Source: Actinomadura craniellae (GTDB lineage Bacteria; Actinomycetota; Actinomycetes; Streptosporangiales; Streptosporangiaceae). Taken from it: a stretch of DNA of 64,000 bases. The position numbers and the translations under genes are program-made. The notes below the pieces were generated by a model. It was given only the letters and a program-made list of their open reading frames with translations. It did not search any database and was not told where the DNA came from. This document shows, piece after piece, positions 5,529 to 29,500 of the stretch (positions are counted from its first letter, which is position 1; the number at the start of each line of letters is the position of its first letter). The stretch covers positions 124,001 through 188,000 of the forward strand of contig NZ_QLYX01000012.1 of NCBI RefSeq assembly GCF_003289645.1. Direction: 5' to 3'.

Positions 5529-6731
5529 TCAGTTCCGGACCGGGGGCTCCAGGTTGTAGAGCTTCGTGGCGGTGTGCTGGAGGACCTTGCCGATGGTCTC
5601 CTCGGGGAGGCCGCCCAGCGCCTGCTCCATGACCACGCGCGGGCTCGGCGACTCCGAGGCCGGGCCGGGGGAGAGGCTGGTGGCGTGCGGGAAGTCGGTC
5701 TCGAACATGAGGTTGTCCTGGAGCTGGTCGATCACCGCGCGCACCGACTGCCGCTCGAACCAGAACATGCCGTAGATCTGCCGGCGCATGTACTCGCTGG
5801 GGAGCATCCGCTCCGGGAACTCCTTGTGGGCGCCGACGTTCAGCCACTGCCAGTCCATGCTCTCGCCGAGGAACGGCAGCCAGCCGGCGCCGTTCTCGAC
5901 CGAGACGAACTTCAGGTCCGGGTACCGGTGGCAGACGCCGCTCAGCACCACCTCGGCGACGTTCTGCGCGTTGCCGAGCAGGACCAGCGCGCTCTCCCGG
6001 GTGAAGTCGAGCTTCTTGGACTGGTCGACCGCGCCCTTGAGCTCGTCGTCGGTGGCGAGGAAGCCCACGTGGAAGTTCATGCTGAGGCCCATCTCCTGGG
6101 CCAGGCCCAGCAGCGGCTCCCAGTAGTCGTCGATCAGGCGGGGGAATCCGGCCTTGTCGTAGCGGGCGGCGAACAGGACGCCCTTGTGGCCCATCTCGTG
6201 GGCGCGCTTCATCTCGGCGACCGACTCGTCGATGTTCCAGAAGGGGAGCATGGTCATCGGGATGAGTCGCCGGGAGTCGGCCGAGCAGAACTCGGTGATC
6301 CAGTCGTTGTAGGCCCGGACGCATTCGGTCGCCAGTTCGCGCGGCATCTGGTTGAGGAACCGGTGGCTGTGGAACCCCAGGATGTTCGGATACATCACCT
6401 GGTAGTAGACGCCCACCTGGTCCATGTAGGCGAGGCGTTCCTTGGGGTCGATGGCGGCCGGCAGCGCCTCGGAGAGCTTCTTGGGGTGGGAGGGCGGCCA
6501 CTCCGGCCAGCCGGCCTGGGCGAAGGCGCCCACGCCGTACAGCTTCTTGTCGCCGATGTACCAGTAGTCCTCCTGCCGCCGTTCGTGGTAGCGCACGTGG
6601 GGGACGAGATCGCCCCACTTCGACGAGATGCGCGACGTCCACAGATCGGCGGGCTCGATGATGTGGGAGTCGACGTCGGCGACCGCGTACCGCTCGCAGA
6701 GAGCGACCTCGGTCGTGTCCTGGTCAGCCAT
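5529..6731 (-). CDS. ACMSD-like amidohydrolase (Amidohydro_2)
   Basis: A 400-residue TIM-barrel amidohydrolase of the ACMSD/LigW (amidohydrolase 2) group, which includes metal-dependent decarboxylases and hydrolases. The first metal motif is DVDSHIIEP, where aspartate replaces the first histidine of HxH; MNFHVGF supplies a later histidine and ETDFPHA the final acidic residue. This DxH form also occurs in the paralogues at 13217 and 16135. The start at 6731 follows AAGGAG. It is transcribed towards the P450 terminator and is preceded by operator site 3. Substrate unknown; decarboxylation or hydrolysis of a ring-derived acid is a family-based guess. Confidence 0.82.
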   Translation of the reverse strand: MADQDTTEVALCERYAVADVDSHIIEPADLWTSRISSKWGDLVPHVRYHERRQEDYWYIGDKKLYGVGAFAQAGWPEWPPSHPKKLSEALPAAIDPKERLAYMDQVGVYYQVMYPNILGFHSHRFLNQMPRELATECVRAYNDWITEFCSADSRRLIPMTMLPFWNIDESVAEMKRAHEMGHKGVLFAARYDKAGFPRLIDDYWEPLLGLAQEMGLSMNFHVGFLATDDELKGAVDQSKKLDFTRESALVLLGNAQNVAEVVLSGVCHRYPDLKFVSVENGAGWLPFLGESMDWQWLNVGAHKEFPERMLPSEYMRRQIYGMFWFERQSVRAVIDQLQDNLMFETDFPHATSLSPGPASESPSPRVVMEQALGGLPEETIGKVLQHTATKLYNLEPPVRN

Positions 6732-6759
6732 CCGCGCGGGCTCCTTCTGGCTCGTTAGA

Positions 6760-6771
6760 GAGTGCTCACTT
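6760..6771. promoter_or_regulatory. Island operator site 3
   Basis: GAGTGCTCACTT, preceded by GA and followed by ACTT, matches the island core (GAGTG-NN-CACTC, one mismatch). It lies 29 bases upstream of the amidohydrolase start at 6731. Confidence 0.65.
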
Positions 6772-6813
6772 ACTTATTTACCTTAGGTGTGCCACGGGCG
6801 ATGCGCAACAGCC

Positions 6814-7656
6814 TCACTCGCCGGGCTCGGGCACGCCGCGCAGGTGCGAGGCCATCATCAGCGGGGTCACGCTGAGCACGCCCGACTCCACCGGCAGGGT
6901 CGCGCCCGTGATCCACCGCGCCTCGTCGCTGGCCAGGAACGTCGCCGCCCAGGCGACGTCCCAGCCGGTGCCGGGCGTGCCGAGGAGGCCCGCCTCGGAG
7001 CGCATCGTGTTCATGAACTCGGCGCGGGCGCCGGGCGCGGAGACCGACAGCACCATCGGCGTGGTGATGTGCCCCGGCGCGACGGCGTTGACCCGGATGC
7101 CCTGGCGGCCGTGCGAGTACGCCATGTCGACCGTCATGGCGATCAGCCCGCCCTTGGCCGCCGAGTAGGCCACGGTGCCGTCGCCGCGCAGCGCCGAGAT
7201 CGAGGACACGTTGACGATCGACCCGCCCCCCTGCCCGGCCATCACGGGCACCGCGTACTTGGACGCCAGGAAGGCGGTCCGCAGGTTGATGTCCATGGCC
7301 TGGTCCCAGGCGTCCTCGTCGGTGTCGACGACCGTCCCGAGCGCCGCGCGGCCGATGTTGTTCACCAGGATGTCGACCGTCCCGAACGCGTCGACGGCCG
7401 CGCGGACCATCGCCGCGCAGTCCGCCGCCCGGGTGACGTCGGCCGCGAACACCTCGGCCTTGCCGCCCTCCTCCTCGATCATGCGCTGGGTCTCCTCGGC
7501 GCGCTCGGGGTACAGGTCGGCCAGCAGGACGCTCGCCCCCTCCCGGGCGAGCACGACCGCGGTCGCCTTGCCCGTGCCGATCCCCGGTCCCGGCGTCGAA
7601 CCGGCGCCCGTCACGATCGCGACCTTGCCCTCGACCCGCCCGGCGCGCTCCACCAT
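6814..7656 (-). CDS. Short-chain dehydrogenase/reductase
   Basis: A 280-residue SDR. The nucleotide-binding motif is a long variant, TGAGSTPGPGIGTGKA (residues about 15-30), followed by NNIG, the catalytic serine in NVSSIS and the YSAAK catalytic pair. It probably oxidises a hydroxyacyl intermediate or reduces a ketone with NAD(P). ATG at 7656 has GGAAGGGAG before it. It is the last gene of a leftward operon with the thiolase-fold protein (7692) and DUF35 partner (8873), whose promoter region holds operator site 4. This suggests a beta-oxidation-like role. Confidence 0.88.
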   Translation of the reverse strand: MVERAGRVEGKVAIVTGAGSTPGPGIGTGKATAVVLAREGASVLLADLYPERAEETQRMIEEEGGKAEVFAADVTRAADCAAMVRAAVDAFGTVDILVNNIGRAALGTVVDTDEDAWDQAMDINLRTAFLASKYAVPVMAGQGGGSIVNVSSISALRGDGTVAYSAAKGGLIAMTVDMAYSHGRQGIRVNAVAPGHITTPMVLSVSAPGARAEFMNTMRSEAGLLGTPGTGWDVAWAATFLASDEARWITGATLPVESGVLSVTPLMMASHLRGVPEPGE

Positions 7657-7691
7657 CGCGTTCTCCCTTCCTCGTGCGAACCGTGTGCCGT

Positions 7692-8876
7692 TCACCAGCG
7701 CGTCAGCAGTGCCGCGCCCGCCTCGAAGCCGCCGACATTGGTCACCGCCGCGACCTGCGCGCCCGCGACCTGCCCGTCGCCGGTCTCCCCGCGCAGCTGG
7801 CGCACCGCCTCGGCGGTGTGGCCGAAGGCGGCGTGCAACCGGCCGCCGGACAGCTGGCCGCCCCAGGTGTTGAGCGGGAGGTCGCCGCCGAGGGCGATCC
7901 GCTTGCCGCCCTCGACGAACGCGCCGGCCTCGCCGACCTCGCAGAAGCCCATCGCCTCCAGCCACCAGACGACCTCGATGGTGAAGCCGTCGTAGAGTTG
8001 GGCCACGTCCACGTCGCCGGGGCGCAGGTCGGTCCGCGCCCACATCGCGCGGGCGGCGCCGTGGCCGACCCGGCCCATGTCCTCCCACTGCTCCCAGGAC
8101 GGCCGGCCCTCGACCACCCCCGCCATCGCCTCGATGCGGACCGGCGACCGCAGGTCGGGCGCCGTCTCCGCGGCCGACACGACGATCGCGGTGGCGCCGT
8201 CCACGGGGACGTCGCAGTCGTACAGGCACATCGGCGTAGAGATCATCCGCGATTCGAGGTACTCCTCGACGGTCAGCGGTGACCGGTACACGGCGTCCGG
8301 GTTGCGGGCGGCGTGCGCCCGCTGCGTCACCGGGATCCACGCGAGCTGCTCGCGGGTCACCCCGTACTCGTGCATGTAGCGCGCGGCGTACGGGGCCACC
8401 TGGCAGACCGGCGACAGCATCCCGACGGGGAGCAGCCAGGCGAGCGGGCCCTCGGCGACCGGTTTGGTGGACCCGTAGGCCGGGCGCCCGCCGGCGGCGC
8501 GGCTCGCGCTGCCCTCCTTGACGGTCCGCCAGATCACGACGTGGCGGGCCTGGCCGGTGGCGACCGCCTGGGCCGGCCCGTAGAAGGGCAGCGCCATCCC
8601 CTCGACGAGCCCCTGCCGCCAGGTGGTGGTGATCCGCAGCGCGTCCTGCACCTCGTAGAGGTTCCCGTTGGCGTAGCCGGGCAGGTTCGCCGCGCCGCCG
8701 CCCGGGAACATGGCCAGGCCGTCGATGTCGTCGAGCGTCAGCCCGGCGTCCTCGACGGCGGCGAGGACGGCGTCGATGGTGAGCTGGAGGCCCGAGCGGC
8801 CGAGCCGGCGCCCGATGGCCGACTGGCCGATGCCGGAGATCACGGCTCGCCGCTCGAACAGGTCGGTTCCCCTCAC
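7692..8876 (-). CDS. Thiolase-fold lipid-transfer/retro-aldolase-like protein
   Basis: A 394-residue thiolase superfamily protein of the SCP-x/lipid-transfer group, with CDVPVDGATA and the late GGQLSGGRLHAAFGH motif. No clear nucleophilic cysteine is seen in the usual N-terminal thiolase position. The GTG start overlaps the stop of the upstream DUF35 gene (GTGA), so the two are translationally coupled. In steroid side-chain catabolism, Ltp2-type proteins paired with DUF35 partners act as retro-aldolases on acyl-CoAs; a similar C-C cleavage is inferred here, with ordinary thiolysis the alternative. Confidence 0.82.
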   Translation of the reverse strand: MRGTDLFERRAVISGIGQSAIGRRLGRSGLQLTIDAVLAAVEDAGLTLDDIDGLAMFPGGGAANLPGYANGNLYEVQDALRITTTWRQGLVEGMALPFYGPAQAVATGQARHVVIWRTVKEGSASRAAGGRPAYGSTKPVAEGPLAWLLPVGMLSPVCQVAPYAARYMHEYGVTREQLAWIPVTQRAHAARNPDAVYRSPLTVEEYLESRMISTPMCLYDCDVPVDGATAIVVSAAETAPDLRSPVRIEAMAGVVEGRPSWEQWEDMGRVGHGAARAMWARTDLRPGDVDVAQLYDGFTIEVVWWLEAMGFCEVGEAGAFVEGGKRIALGGDLPLNTWGGQLSGGRLHAAFGHTAEAVRQLRGETGDGQVAGAQVAAVTNVGGFEAGAALLTRW

Positions 8877-9304
8877 GCCGCCGCCCCGTCCGCGGGGGAG
8901 ACGGCCACGAAGCTCGGGATGGCGAAGCCGCCCGGCCCGGGTTCGAAGCCGATGTCCACCGCCATGCCGATGGCCGCCCGCTCCGGCGGGCACCCCCGCA
9001 GCCGGCCCGCCACCCGCACCCCGGGATGGCCGGGGAACTCGACGAGGACGACGGCGTACGGCACCGGGAGGTCGGGGAGCCAGCGCTGGTGGTTGACGGT
9101 GAGGCTGTAGACCCGGCCCCGGCCGGTGATCTCGACGGGGACCGGCGTCCTGGCCCGGCAGGAGCGGCATATCCCGCGCGGCGGGAACGACTCGGCGCCG
9201 CAGGACGAGCACCCCTCGACGACCAGGCGGCCCTCCTTGGCGGCGGCCCAGAACGCCTCGGTCTCCTCGGTGACGGCGGGCGGTATCCCTACGGTTGCGT
9301 CCAT
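8873..9304 (-). CDS. DUF35 OB-fold acyl-CoA-binding partner
   Basis: A 143-residue protein with an N-terminal rubredoxin-like zinc ribbon (CSSCGAESFPPRGICRSC, near residues 32-49) and a C-terminal OB fold. DUF35 proteins bind acyl-CoA and form complexes with thiolase-fold partners, fitting the overlapping downstream gene. ATG at 9304 follows an AAGGGGAAG purine run; an upstream in-frame start at 9343 would lie inside the operator region and is less likely. First gene of the leftward DUF35/thiolase/SDR operon. Confidence 0.87.
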   Translation of the reverse strand: MDATVGIPPAVTEETEAFWAAAKEGRLVVEGCSSCGAESFPPRGICRSCRARTPVPVEITGRGRVYSLTVNHQRWLPDLPVPYAVVLVEFPGHPGVRVAGRLRGCPPERAAIGMAVDIGFEPGPGGFAIPSFVAVSPADGAAA

Positions 9305-9329
9305 CTTCCCCTTCCCGCGCCACGCAAGA

Positions 9330-9341
9330 GAGTGTTCGCTC
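9330..9341. promoter_or_regulatory. Island operator site 4 (divergent promoter)
   Basis: GAGTGTTCGCTC matches the core exactly. A second half-site-like AAAGTGAGCC follows at 9361. It lies between the divergent DUF35 operon and the luciferase-like/CoA-transferase operon. Confidence 0.7.
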
Positions 9342-9429
9342 ACTATACCTCTACCGTAAGAAAGTGAGCCTTTGCTATCTTCGGGCCGTCGGCGCCGTCC
9401 GGCGTCGGCGCTCTCGCGAAGGAGGCGGG

Positions 9430-10392
9430 GTGTCCGACGATCGCATCATCCTCGGGGCGGCGGCGATTCCGGAGCCGGACAAGGACTGGCTGGCGGCGGT
9501 CGAGCGCCTGCCGATCGCGTCGGTATGGCAGGGCGGCCACGTGCTGCCGCCGAGCCAGACCGGCGAGGCGATCACCCGGCTGGCCCTGATGACCGCCTGG
9601 ACCGAACGGGTGCGGGTCGGTACCGGCGTGCTCCCGCTCCCGCTGTACCAGCCGGTGGTCGTGGCCAAGCAGCTCGCCGACCTCGACTCCCGCTCCGGCG
9701 GCCGGGTCTCGGTCGGCCTCGGGGTCGGCGGGGAGTTCCGCCAGGAGTTCGAGGCGGTCGGCGTGCCGCTCGACGAGCGCGGCGCCCGGACCGACGAGGC
9801 GATGGAAGTGCTCCGGCTGCTCTGGCGGGGCGGGCCGGCCCGGCACCGCGGCCGGTTCTTCCGGCTCGACGACGTGGAGCTCCGGCCGGTACGGCCGCCC
9901 GGGGCCGGCGCACCCGGGATGCGGCCGGGTGGCCCGCCGCTGCTGGTGTCCGGCCGCAAACGGCCGGCCATGCGCCGCGCCGCCCGGCTGGGCGACGGGT
10001 GGATGCCGTACCTGGTGTCGCCGGACGCGTACGCCCGCTCGGTGCGCGCCATCGAGGAGGAGGCGTGGGAGGCCGGCCGTGACCTGGCCGGATTCGAGTG
10101 GATGATGTACCTGTACTGCTCCATCCGCCGGGACGGCGACCGCGCCCGCGACGACGTCGCCGGGTTCCTCGGCTCCGCCTACGGTGACAAGCCCGGCGCC
10201 ATGCTCGACCGCATCGCCCCGGCGGGCACGCCGGAGGAGGTCGCGGCCCGGCTCCAGCAGTACGTCGACGCCGGCGTCCGGCACTTCGTCATCGCCCCGG
10301 CCGCGCCCGCCGACACGCTGGAGGTGGTCACCCTCGCCGCCCGGGAAGTGCTGCCGAGGCTGTCCCTGCCGGTCCGGGGCGGGACGCCGTGA
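9430..10392 (+). CDS. F420-type LLM-class oxidoreductase
   Basis: A 320-residue luciferase-like monooxygenase family protein (LLM class), a TIM barrel that in actinomycetes usually binds coenzyme F420. Typical segments are RVRVGTGVLPLPLYQPVVVA, the glycine-rich SVGLGVGG and ARLGDGWMPY. It probably performs a hydride transfer or oxygenation on a pathway intermediate. The GTG at 9430 is chosen because AGGAGG precedes it; the frame is open further upstream but without conserved residues. Its stop overlaps the GTG of the CoA transferase, so they are coupled. Confidence 0.85.
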   Translation: MSDDRIILGAAAIPEPDKDWLAAVERLPIASVWQGGHVLPPSQTGEAITRLALMTAWTERVRVGTGVLPLPLYQPVVVAKQLADLDSRSGGRVSVGLGVGGEFRQEFEAVGVPLDERGARTDEAMEVLRLLWRGGPARHRGRFFRLDDVELRPVRPPGAGAPGMRPGGPPLLVSGRKRPAMRRAARLGDGWMPYLVSPDAYARSVRAIEEEAWEAGRDLAGFEWMMYLYCSIRRDGDRARDDVAGFLGSAYGDKPGAMLDRIAPAGTPEEVAARLQQYVDAGVRHFVIAPAAPADTLEVVTLAAREVLPRLSLPVRGGTP

Positions 10393-12677
10393 TCGCTCCT
10401 GTGTCCAGGCTGCCGTTCGCCGGGCTGTCCGTCGTCGAGGTCGCGGTCGGCGCCGGCGACCTCGGGCTGGGGGCGGCCGGGGGAGTGCCGGGCATGCTCC
10501 TGGCCGACCTCGGCGCCGACGTCGTCCGGGTGGTGGGCGCGGAGCCGGTGCCCATCGACCGGGACGTGCCCTGGGGCCGGGCGTGGCACCGCGACAAGCG
10601 CCTCGTCGCCACCGACGACCGGGACGAGGTGTTCGCGCTGCTGCGCTACGCGGACGTCGCGCTGGTGTACGGGCCGGAGGCGCTCGTGGAGGCGCGTGGC
10701 CTGGGCTACCGCGACCTGTGCGCCGCGAACCCGTCGCTGGTCTACGCGCGCTGCCGCCCCAGCCGGACGGCCGCGGGGACCGTCGAGGACTACGGCCTCC
10801 TGGTGGAGGCGAACGCCGGACTCTGCACCCAGCTGGCCGGCCACCGGCCCGGCCCGATCTTCGTCGACGTCCGGGCGTCCGGCATCGGCACCGCGTCGCT
10901 GCTCGTCGTGTCCGTGCTCGCCCTCCTGGGCCGCCGGGCCCGGACCGGCGCCGGCGGGTGGGCCGAGACCTCCCTGTACGACGGGATGCTCGCCACGCTC
11001 GGCTGCATGATCGGCCGCTCCGAGCGGGCCGCGCCCGAGATCGAGGGGTACTGGGAGAAGGGGTCGACCTTCCCGAACTTCCTGTACCGCTGCGCCGACG
11101 GCGAGCTGATCCAGGTGTGGTTCGGCGGCAAGGGGATGTACCGGTCGCTGATCGAGGTGCTCGGCGACGAGCCGAGCGCCCAGGGCTACTACACCGACCA
11201 GATGACCGGGAAGCTCGGCGAGCGGGCCGCCCGGTGGACGTCGTTCTTCGCGACCGAACCGCGCGACGTCTGGATCCGCCGGCTGCGGGAGGTGGGCGTG
11301 GCGTGCGAGCCCGTGCTCGGCCCCGGCGAGGCGCTGGCCGATCCCCACCTGGCCGAGATCGGGCTGGCCGTCCCGCGCGCCGACGCCGGTCACCGCGACG
11401 TGGTGGTCGGCTCGCCGATCTCGATGCGCCCGCTCGGCCCGCGGGACGGAACGGCGGCGCCGCCCGGAGCCGCGAGCGGGGACCTGCTGGCCGGGGTCCG
11501 CGTTGTGGACTTCTCCGCGTTCGTGGCCGGCCCGCTCGCCGCCGAGGTCCTCGCCGACCTCGGCGCGGACGTCATCAAGATCGAACCACCGGAGGGCGAG
11601 GCGATGCGCGCCGCCGCGTACGCCGTGGCGGCGTGCCAGCGGGGCAAGCGCAGCCTGGCGCTGGACATCGGCGCGCCGGCGGCCCGGCCCGTCGTCGAGC
11701 GGCTGCTGGCCGGGGCCGACGTCGTCCTGCACAACTTCCGGGTCGGGGTGGCGGAGCGGCTCGGCATCGACGAGGAGACCGTCGCCCGGCTGAACCCGGA
11801 CGCGGTGTACTGCCATGCCAGCGCGTTCGGCGCCACCGGCCCCCGGGCGGCCCTGCCGGCGAACGACGCGCTCATGCAGGCGGTGACCGGTTTCGAGCGG
11901 GCCGTCGGCGGCGCCGGCAACGATCCGCTGGCCGCGACCTGGATCCCGCTGGACATGGCGGGGGGCTGGGTCGCCGCCGTCGGCGTGCTGGCCGGTCTCT
12001 ACGCGCGGTCGGCCGGCGGTCGCGGGCAGCACGTGGTGACGAGCCTGCTCGGCTCCGGGATGCTGCTGCAGAGCGGGGTGTTCGAACGCGATGGCGAGCT
12101 GGTCCGCGGTCCCGAACTGGACGCGCGGCAGACCGGGTACGGGCCCGGCTACCGCCTCTACGAGGGCGGCGACGGCCGGTGGTTCGCGCTGGTCGTCCCG
12201 GACGAGCCGGCCTGGCGGCGGCTGGCCGCCCTGGTGCCGGACGGGTCGCTCCCGGAGGTGTACGCGCCGCTGCGCGGGGGTGCCGCCGACGACGCCGCCC
12301 GGCGGGCGGAGGCGGTCCTCGAAACCGCGTTCGCGGCCGGGCCCGCGGCCGGGTGGGTCGGCCGGCTGCGCGGTGCGGGGCTGCTCGCCGAGCTCGTCGA
12401 GCCGCTCGACCGGGACGGTTTCCGGCGCGCCGTCCTCGACGACCCGGTGAACCGCGTGCTCGGCCGGGTCGTGTCCTACGAGACCGCCGACTGGGGGCGC
12501 TTCGAGCAGATCGGCCCGCTGCTGCGGTGCGGCCCGGCGGCCGGCGGCGGTCCGCGGCTGATGCTTCCGGGCGTCGGCGAGCACAGCGTGGAGATCCTCA
12601 CCGAGCTCGGGTTCGGCCGCGAGGAGATCGACGCGCTGCTCGCCGCGCAGGTCGCCCGGCAGATGAAGTCCGACTGA
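10389..12677 (+). CDS. Tandem-fused family III CoA transferase (two CaiB/BaiF domains)
   Basis: A 762-residue protein, twice the usual family length, made of two CaiB/BaiF (family III) CoA-transferase domains: residues about 1-350 and 365-762. Each begins with a conserved strand followed by LADLGADVVRV or LADLGADVIKI, and each keeps an aspartate at the catalytic position (D134 in VEDYGLL; D493 in ANDALMQ). Family III enzymes form interlocked dimers, so a fused pair can act as one unit. It should load CoA onto a carboxylic acid substrate. The GTG overlaps the upstream stop (GTGA). First domain is the more diverged. Confidence 0.87.
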   Translation: MIAPVSRLPFAGLSVVEVAVGAGDLGLGAAGGVPGMLLADLGADVVRVVGAEPVPIDRDVPWGRAWHRDKRLVATDDRDEVFALLRYADVALVYGPEALVEARGLGYRDLCAANPSLVYARCRPSRTAAGTVEDYGLLVEANAGLCTQLAGHRPGPIFVDVRASGIGTASLLVVSVLALLGRRARTGAGGWAETSLYDGMLATLGCMIGRSERAAPEIEGYWEKGSTFPNFLYRCADGELIQVWFGGKGMYRSLIEVLGDEPSAQGYYTDQMTGKLGERAARWTSFFATEPRDVWIRRLREVGVACEPVLGPGEALADPHLAEIGLAVPRADAGHRDVVVGSPISMRPLGPRDGTAAPPGAASGDLLAGVRVVDFSAFVAGPLAAEVLADLGADVIKIEPPEGEAMRAAAYAVAACQRGKRSLALDIGAPAARPVVERLLAGADVVLHNFRVGVAERLGIDEETVARLNPDAVYCHASAFGATGPRAALPANDALMQAVTGFERAVGGAGNDPLAATWIPLDMAGGWVAAVGVLAGLYARSAGGRGQHVVTSLLGSGMLLQSGVFERDGELVRGPELDARQTGYGPGYRLYEGGDGRWFALVVPDEPAWRRLAALVPDGSLPEVYAPLRGGAADDAARRAEAVLETAFAAGPAAGWVGRLRGAGLLAELVEPLDRDGFRRAVLDDPVNRVLGRVVSYETADWGRFEQIGPLLRCGPAAGGGPRLMLPGVGEHSVEILTELGFGREEIDALLAAQVARQMKSD

Positions 12678-28486: not shown

Positions 28487-28993
28487 TCAGCCCGCCGCGA
28501 CCGGCCGCCCTGCCGGCGGCGGGGCGAGGGGCAACATGGACAGGACACGATCGGTGGTGAGGGCCATGGTGCAGCGTCCGGCGGCGTAGGTGGTGGCCGA
28601 GAGATGGTGGTCGGCGGAGAGGTCGGCGGTGGCGTCCGCGACGAAGAACACCTCGATGTCGCGCATGAACGCCTCGCGGGCCGTCATGAGGCAGCCGAGG
28701 TGGGCGTAGATCCCGGTGATGATGAGCTGGTCGCGGCCGAGGTCGGCCATGACCCTGGCCAGCGGGGTCTGCTGGAAGTCGCCGTAGACGACCGGGATCC
28801 CGAGCGTGGCGCAGTGCGAGCGCAGCGCGATGATGTTGGTGACGAGTTCGGGGATCGGGGGGACGTCGCGGGCGAAGGCGTCCGCGAAGTGGTTCTGCAG
28901 GTCGTGGATCAGCAGCACGGCACGGGAGGGGTCCGCGGTCCAGCCGATGCCTCCGGCGGCGCCGGTCACGGCGGCCACGCTCTTGCGCATCAT
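28487..28993 (-). pseudogene. Isochorismatase remnant joined to an EntA-like N terminus
   Basis: A 168-residue frame whose residues 18-168 match isochorismatase (EntB/DhbB N-terminal domain): AVLLIHDLQNHF with catalytic D31 and GIYAHLGCLMTAREAFMRDI with catalytic C101. Between residues about 70 and 77 some 45-50 residues normally present are missing, including the segment with the catalytic lysine (VKWRYSAFHRS in EntB). Residues 1-17 (SVAAVTGAAGGIG) are not isochorismatase but a nucleotide-binding TGxxxGIG motif of an EntA/DhbA-like SDR. It therefore looks like a fused and internally deleted relic of 2,3-dihydroxybenzoate genes, unlikely to be active. An IdeR-like box precedes it. Confidence 0.75.
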
Positions 28994-29019: not shown

Positions 29020-29038
29020 TTAGGTTAGGCATACCTAT
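29020..29038. promoter_or_regulatory. IdeR/DtxR iron box 1
   Basis: TTAGGTTAGGCATACCTAT matches the consensus TTAGGTTAGGCTAACCTAA at 16 of 19 positions. It lies 27 bases upstream of the isochorismatase remnant. Confidence 0.75.
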
Positions 29039-29293: not shown

Positions 29294-29500
29294 ATGAGCA
29301 GCCCGTTCGACGACGCCGACGGCGTCTTCCTCGTGGTGGTCGACGACGAGGGACGGCACTCGTTGTGGCCGCTGTTCGCACCCGTCCCCGCCGGGTGGAC
29401 CACTGTCCACGGGCCCGCCGGGCACGAGGACTGCCTCGACTACGTCCAGCGGTCCTGGACCGGCCTGGGCCCGCTGAGCCCGCGATGGGGGCGGGCGTGA
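29294..29500 (+). CDS. MbtH-like protein (orphan)
   Basis: A 68-residue MbtH-family protein. These small proteins bind and support adenylation domains of nonribosomal peptide synthetases, often for siderophores. The three invariant tryptophans (W25, W35, W55) and SLWP...VPAGW are present, but the terminal motif WTDLRP has become WTGLGP and the early asparagine is aspartate. ATG at 29294 follows GGAGGA. No NRPS lies in the window; with an iron box upstream it probably served, or serves at a distance, a siderophore synthetase. Confidence 0.88.
   Translation: MSSPFDDADGVFLVVVDDEGRHSLWPLFAPVPAGWTTVHGPAGHEDCLDYVQRSWTGLGPLSPRWGRA

Follow-up and report, generated by a model that had tools for sequence, protein, structure and literature searches.

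Isochorismatases are the closest described counterparts of the protein discussed here. For PhzD, the published account of the active site names D38, K122 and G155 as catalytic residues, the nucleophile position being a glycine in isochorismatases (PMC5353710). For SmEntB, Gln79 and Arg88 are reported to be placed to hold the ring carboxylate and Lys123 near the pyruvyl group, with Trp95 lining the pocket and residues 79-104 helping to cap it (PMC12210187). Here we consider a short open reading frame in a window of Actinomadura craniellae DNA (by window we mean the whole stretch analysed, 64,000 nucleotides). We suggest, with a probability of roughly 0.86, that this frame is a scar left by deletions in a catecholate-siderophore (2,3-dihydroxybenzoate) operon that has been lost, and that it has no selected function and is decaying.

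The frame is open on the minus strand from end to end, with neither stop nor frameshift (Table 1), and its second ATG (28990) fits the start of relatives better than the first. Residues 1-17, MMRKSVAAVTGAAGGIG, correspond to the N-terminus of DhbA in relatives, for example MRDRVTAVTGAAGGIG in genome G284, which bears out the proposal of the initial annotation that the protein opens with an EntA-like stretch of 17 residues carrying a TGxxxGIG motif. The annotation was also right that the frame then runs on directly as an EntB-like isochorismatase: from W18 on it is DhbB, with a match to the Pfam Isochorismatase family (PF00857) at 79.7 bits (cut-off 27) in two stretches, and E. coli EntB (2fq1) aligns in two stretches as well, query residues 16-71 on EntB 24-79 and 68-162 on EntB 126-216. 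The internal gap in the DhbB-like part, put beforehand at about 45-50 residues including the catalytic lysine, is exactly 50 codons long and lies between VVY70 and G71; the K-W-R-Y lysine segment, whose presence on alignment the annotation had named as a reason to give up its reading, was looked for and is absent. D31, the catalytic aspartate, and C101 remain as described, D31 in a column that is invariant in the homologue alignment. Pfam and NCBIfam scans of the protein (P0002) returned no dehydrogenase family, the DhbA part being 17 residues long and not a full short-chain dehydrogenase domain. A search of the genome with the frame itself gave one match, at 100%, namely the frame. Judging from these alignments, the short fused frame is not a chance one.

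Table 1. Positions within the window of the fused frame, its parts and the neighbouring features.
Feature	Position	Strand	Remark
Fused remnant ORF: dhbA start, then dhbB with an internal deletion	28487..28993	-	168 aa
17 codons of former dhbA, TGxxxGIG motif	28943..28993	-	aligned to dhbA start of relatives
dhbB N-terminal part W18-Y70, including D31	28784..28942	-	
dhbB C-terminal part, G71 to stop	28487..28783	-	homologous to SAFQRT... of intact DhbB
Iron box 1, TTAGGTTAGGCATACCTAT	29020..29038		in what was the dhbA promoter; same sequence as the G264 box ahead of dhbA
Iron box 2, TTAGGTAAGCCTTGCCTAA	29109..29127		faces divergent gene
Lone mbtH-like gene	29294..29500	+	divergent, downstream of iron box 2

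Comparison with relatives shows what the locus lacks. Within the family, 341 genomes were searched, the genus being represented by one genome, the scar's own; 132 of them, that genome included, gave matches at E up to 1e-15. We inspected 47 distinct other places closely, 46 from this search and one from the contigs of named genomes, where Longimycelium tulufanense was the single relative found. All 47 keep the K-x-R-Y-S-A segment, and in the 44 with an HDMQ motif 89-95 residues separate HDMQ from the SA of YSA, compared with 41 in the scar. The family of short forms in relatives that the initial annotation had named as a counter-indication was looked for, and none of the 47 homologous places shares the short form. 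Among plasmids, 112 records match, none of which covers 80% of the query, and the 15 best of the 112 are longer across the gap. A candidate second family of short isochorismatases, at seven places in genus g35 (genomes G126, G128, G129 and G131) with single matches spanning about query residues 10-165, was rejected: the frames are of full length with the lysine motif, and the apparent shortness is an alignment artefact. Seven places with ambiguous ranges (G130, G294, G134, G062, G122, G268 and G250) contain the lysine motif too. The same g35 genomes carry several isochorismatase genes each, some of them amid long open frames.

The intact orthologous loci that the initial annotation proposed to look for do exist. 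In the six closest places (G284, G272, G264, G283, G259 and G226, all of genus g55), dhbA and dhbB form the ends of an intact operon with a corresponding iron-box operator in front, on one strand and in the same layout, with 3,577-3,603 nt between the positions of the two breakpoints (3,603 in the closest, G284). In G259, where the genes were identified by family profiles, the order is dhbA-dhbC-dhbE-dhbB, with DhbA at 308 bits (TIGR04316), the DHB-AMP ligase DhbE at 768 bits (TIGR02275), DhbB at 132 bits (Isochorismatase) and the isochorismate synthase DhbC at 469 bits, under the cut-off of 486 for NF005380 and above that of TIGR00543; a carrier protein and an iron-siderophore binding protein are encoded divergently. 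Given this intact operon, the fusion is the simple product of one deletion inside it. Two features expected of a deletion remnant (pseudogene) are thus found here: relatives have the parent operon intact behind the corresponding promoter, and essential catalytic parts are lost.

The two junctions are readable at nucleotide level. At the first, between 28943 and 28942, the dhbA codons ATC-GGC are followed by the dhbB codon TGG; in relatives the codon before this TGG is GGC, TCC, ACC or GAC, so the two sides would share anything from 1 to 5 nt, according to which codon the ancestor had. The second junction, between 28784 and 28783, has lost 150 nt. The dhbB gene of G284 contains TACAGCGCC twice, as an exact 9-nt repeat in the same frame and 150 nt apart, and the loss in the scar falls exactly between the positions of the two copies. 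The scar reads TAC-GGC-GAC at this point, two substitutions away from TAC-AGC-GCC, and these substitutions must have followed if the loss was repeat-mediated. The initial annotation considered two frame-keeping deletions unusual for simple decay. However, two in-frame 9-nt repeats 150 nt apart yield a loss of exactly 50 codons and keep the frame without selection, and the first deletion had a 1-in-3 chance of keeping it, so an open frame across the deletions is no sign of selection.

The same repeat could raise the suspicion that the short form is an error in assembling an intact operon, as the genome is a draft of 41 contigs and one of the deletions lies between sequences that are short repeats in a relative. 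We regard this as very improbable: substitutions sit at the second junction, the branch of P0002 in the tree is long, a repeat of 9 nt would not be long enough to mislead an assembly, the other side of the cluster has changed too, and dhbA and dhbE are found nowhere else above cut-off in a genome of 99.24% completeness.

What the second deletion removed speaks for loss of activity. Mapped by spacing on the alignment and in SmEntB numbering, the equivalents of Gln79, Arg88 and Trp95 and the lid (PMC12210187) all fall inside the 50 missing residues, and with them goes the segment of the catalytic lysine (K122 in PhzD, K123 in SmEntB). With the lysine, the substrate-binding glutamine and arginine, the tryptophan and the lid gone, isochorismatase activity of the predicted protein is very unlikely. 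The retention of C101, to which the initial annotation implicitly gave a catalytic role, does not alter this, since the nucleophile position is a glycine in isochorismatases (as in the D38-K122-G155 set of PhzD) and C101 is thus not catalytic in this subgroup; the residue after that glycine is C in 38 of 47 homologues and V in the other 9. It is conceivable that the frame encodes a still-working short isochorismatase of a distinct subfamily, as the Pfam score well above cut-off and the kept Asp31 might suggest, but with so much of the pocket missing, with the missing segment kept in 47 of 47 other places and with no DhbA or DhbE partner above cut-off in the genome, we find this hardly credible.

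These partners were sought throughout the scar's own genome. The best DhbA match reaches 156.6 bits (cut-off 300) and the best DhbE match 587.9 bits (cut-off 723.55), and no second isochorismatase was found. We also asked whether other parts of the genome could supply dihydroxybenzoate and set the idea aside: some related enzymes exist, but with no second isochorismatase an intact pathway was not found. An isochorismate synthase lies on contig C14 (1-18000) at 6479-8503 on the plus strand (282 bits, above cut-off); its end resembles DhbC by eye, and no isochorismatase is left in the genome beside it. On contig C1, at about 195000-228400, an aryl-AMP ligase related to DhbE (588 bits, below the family cut-off) stands beside NRPS genes; the region has two large NRPS-like open frames, of 6792 and 3567 aa, together with an mbtH, and a scan of parts of it found no iron box even when 4 mismatches were allowed.

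The deletions left the regulatory region in place. A scan of the window with an iron-box consensus that we take to be of the DmdR/IdeR type found, at up to 3 mismatches, two boxes, versus none in 100 shuffles. These 19-bp boxes lie upstream of the frame, and the promoter region with both of them aligns with that of five relatives. The genome also encodes a DtxR-family protein (one PF01325 match above cut-off). With two intact iron boxes and a DtxR-family gene, iron-responsive transcription is a fair prediction, and control of the scar by a DmdR/IdeR-type repressor is plausible; the suggestion of the initial annotation that the frame is perhaps iron-responsive is likely correct for the promoter, as predicted from sequence. 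Just past the second box, similarity to the relatives stops: they have a carrier-protein gene there, and the window has mbtH. This mbtH gene is on its own, preceded by an intact iron box and without a neighbouring NRPS gene, and the genome has three other mbtH genes; it could serve one of the NRPS clusters of the genome in trans.

Whether the frame is still under selection was addressed with a tree and codon models. The tree has 16 members (G290, whose N-terminal part is 2 residues shorter, was left out); the codon models cover 131 codons in 13 of these 16 sequences, without G197, G198 and G305. In both, the second junction was set by hand, because automatic alignment misplaced two junction residues, and the two junction codons were excluded from the codon models. 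P0002 and G284 form a group with support 91, and the branch of P0002, at 0.263, is 2.2 times longer than that of G284, at 0.119. Omega is 0.185 on the scar branch and 0.071 elsewhere, a difference that is not significant (2 delta lnL 3.3, about p 0.07). An omega of 1 over the whole scar branch is disfavoured (lnL -2897.51 vs -2895.01; 2 delta lnL 5.0, about p 0.025), though the branch also spans the time before the deletion. A two-phase model, constrained and then neutral, fits equally well (lnL -2895.18 vs -2895.01 for free omega), with 0.128 substitutions per codon in the neutral last phase. The codon models fit a history of constraint followed by recent neutrality as well as one of continued constraint, and decay needs no extra assumption.

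Survival of the frame over such a phase is no surprise. About 0.4-1.1% of neutral substitutions in sequence of such composition make a stop, which further weakens the argument that frame-keeping deletions are unusual for decay. At 0.10-0.15 substitutions per codon, a frame would escape stops with a probability of 0.91-0.94 if third-position composition is used and of 0.75-0.83 if GC is set to 70%. A neutral frame of this composition usually stays open, so an open frame is expected by chance.

Against decay weigh the open frame, the intact iron boxes, the well-kept protein outside the deletion and the disfavoured omega of 1. On such grounds, the open frame with its iron boxes and a scar-branch omega that is overall below 1, one might argue that selection has retained the truncated protein, under iron control, in a new role of binding or regulation instead of catalysis. 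The structural prediction can be cited in the same direction: with three sequences only, AlphaFold2 gave a model of five strands and helices at low confidence (mean pLDDT 60.6; 36-40 for the other four models), which could be the isochorismatase core minus the lysine strand. However, the intact control, also with three sequences only, scored an equally low 56.6, and a model of such confidence is not evidence for a stable fold. Moreover, the short form occurs in none of the relatives inspected, the two-phase decay model fits equally well, a frame would stay open by chance with a probability of about 0.75-0.94 near the fitted neutral time, and 2 of the 48 columns outside the deletion that are invariant among the 16 homologues have changed in the scar, in HDMQ and ADFS, in addition to the change of the junction residues from S-A to G-D. 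We consider such a new role unlikely, and the idea of the initial annotation that the product was perhaps kept for another role finds no positive support. In its most specific form, the proposal would have a small protein under iron control arise anew from the deletions, with a DhbA-derived start ahead of a catalytically dead isochorismatase core of five strands, and persist because it binds or regulates something in iron metabolism. We think this form unlikely as well.

Together, our data favour a model in which the frame is a decaying scar. The ancestor would have had a divergent cluster with two iron boxes in its middle, as seen in relatives, with dhbA-dhbC-dhbE-dhbB leftward and, presumably, a carrier protein and further siderophore genes rightward. 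A deletion of about 3.6 kb would have joined codon 17 of dhbA to dhbB just before the tryptophan codon, and another, of 150 nt between the two in-frame TAC-AGC-GCC copies in dhbB, would have taken out the lid of the active site together with the catalytic lysine and the residues that bind the substrate; the TAC-GGC-GAC now found at that junction would be a later product of substitution. A separate change on the right would have removed the carrier gene and left mbtH. As the iron-box promoter survives, iron limitation probably leads to transcription of the scar, and translation into a protein that, given the residues lost, would lack isochorismatase activity is possible.

The lost siderophore may have become dispensable. 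On contig C41 (50000-66000), at about 6040-10432 on the minus strand, two ORFs with IucA/IucC and FhuF domains adjoin an iron-box-like site at 10405. They form a probable NIS siderophore locus, which may replace the lost siderophore. A cognate siderophore-binding protein of the lost cluster was not clearly found in the genome (best 31% identity), so a reading of the strain as a 'cheater' is without support here.

The scar is a real, clearly readable and ordinary kind of gene loss. It shows cleanly how the erasure of a siderophore operon proceeds, since comparison with intact relatives reveals the two end points, the repeat that underlies the second deletion and the iron-box operator that survived. 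The case also cautions that, where GC content is high, a long open frame says little about function. If the cell turned out to produce and retain the protein, deletion within a siderophore operon would here have given rise to a new gene. In the literature searched, we found no report of a dhbA-dhbB fusion of this form. Compared with DhbB/EntB (PF00857; EntB 2fq1, VibB 3tg2, PhzD 1nf9), the predicted protein matches in sequence to either side of the gap and shares Asp31, the glycine at the nucleophile position and the C-terminal half, but lacks 50 residues and has its first 20 or so replaced by a DhbA start. With the 2,3-dihydro-2,3-DHB dehydrogenase DhbA/EntA (TIGR04316) it shares the first 17 residues, including the nucleotide-binding turn, but not the remaining 240 or so. 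At the level of the whole pathway, the nearest parallel is Nitrosococcus oceani, where one lineage is reported to have lost the synthesis of a siderophore and retained another (PMC7285500). Both cases have lost a biosynthetic cluster and kept a different siderophore locus, whereas in A. craniellae a visible in-frame scar remains.
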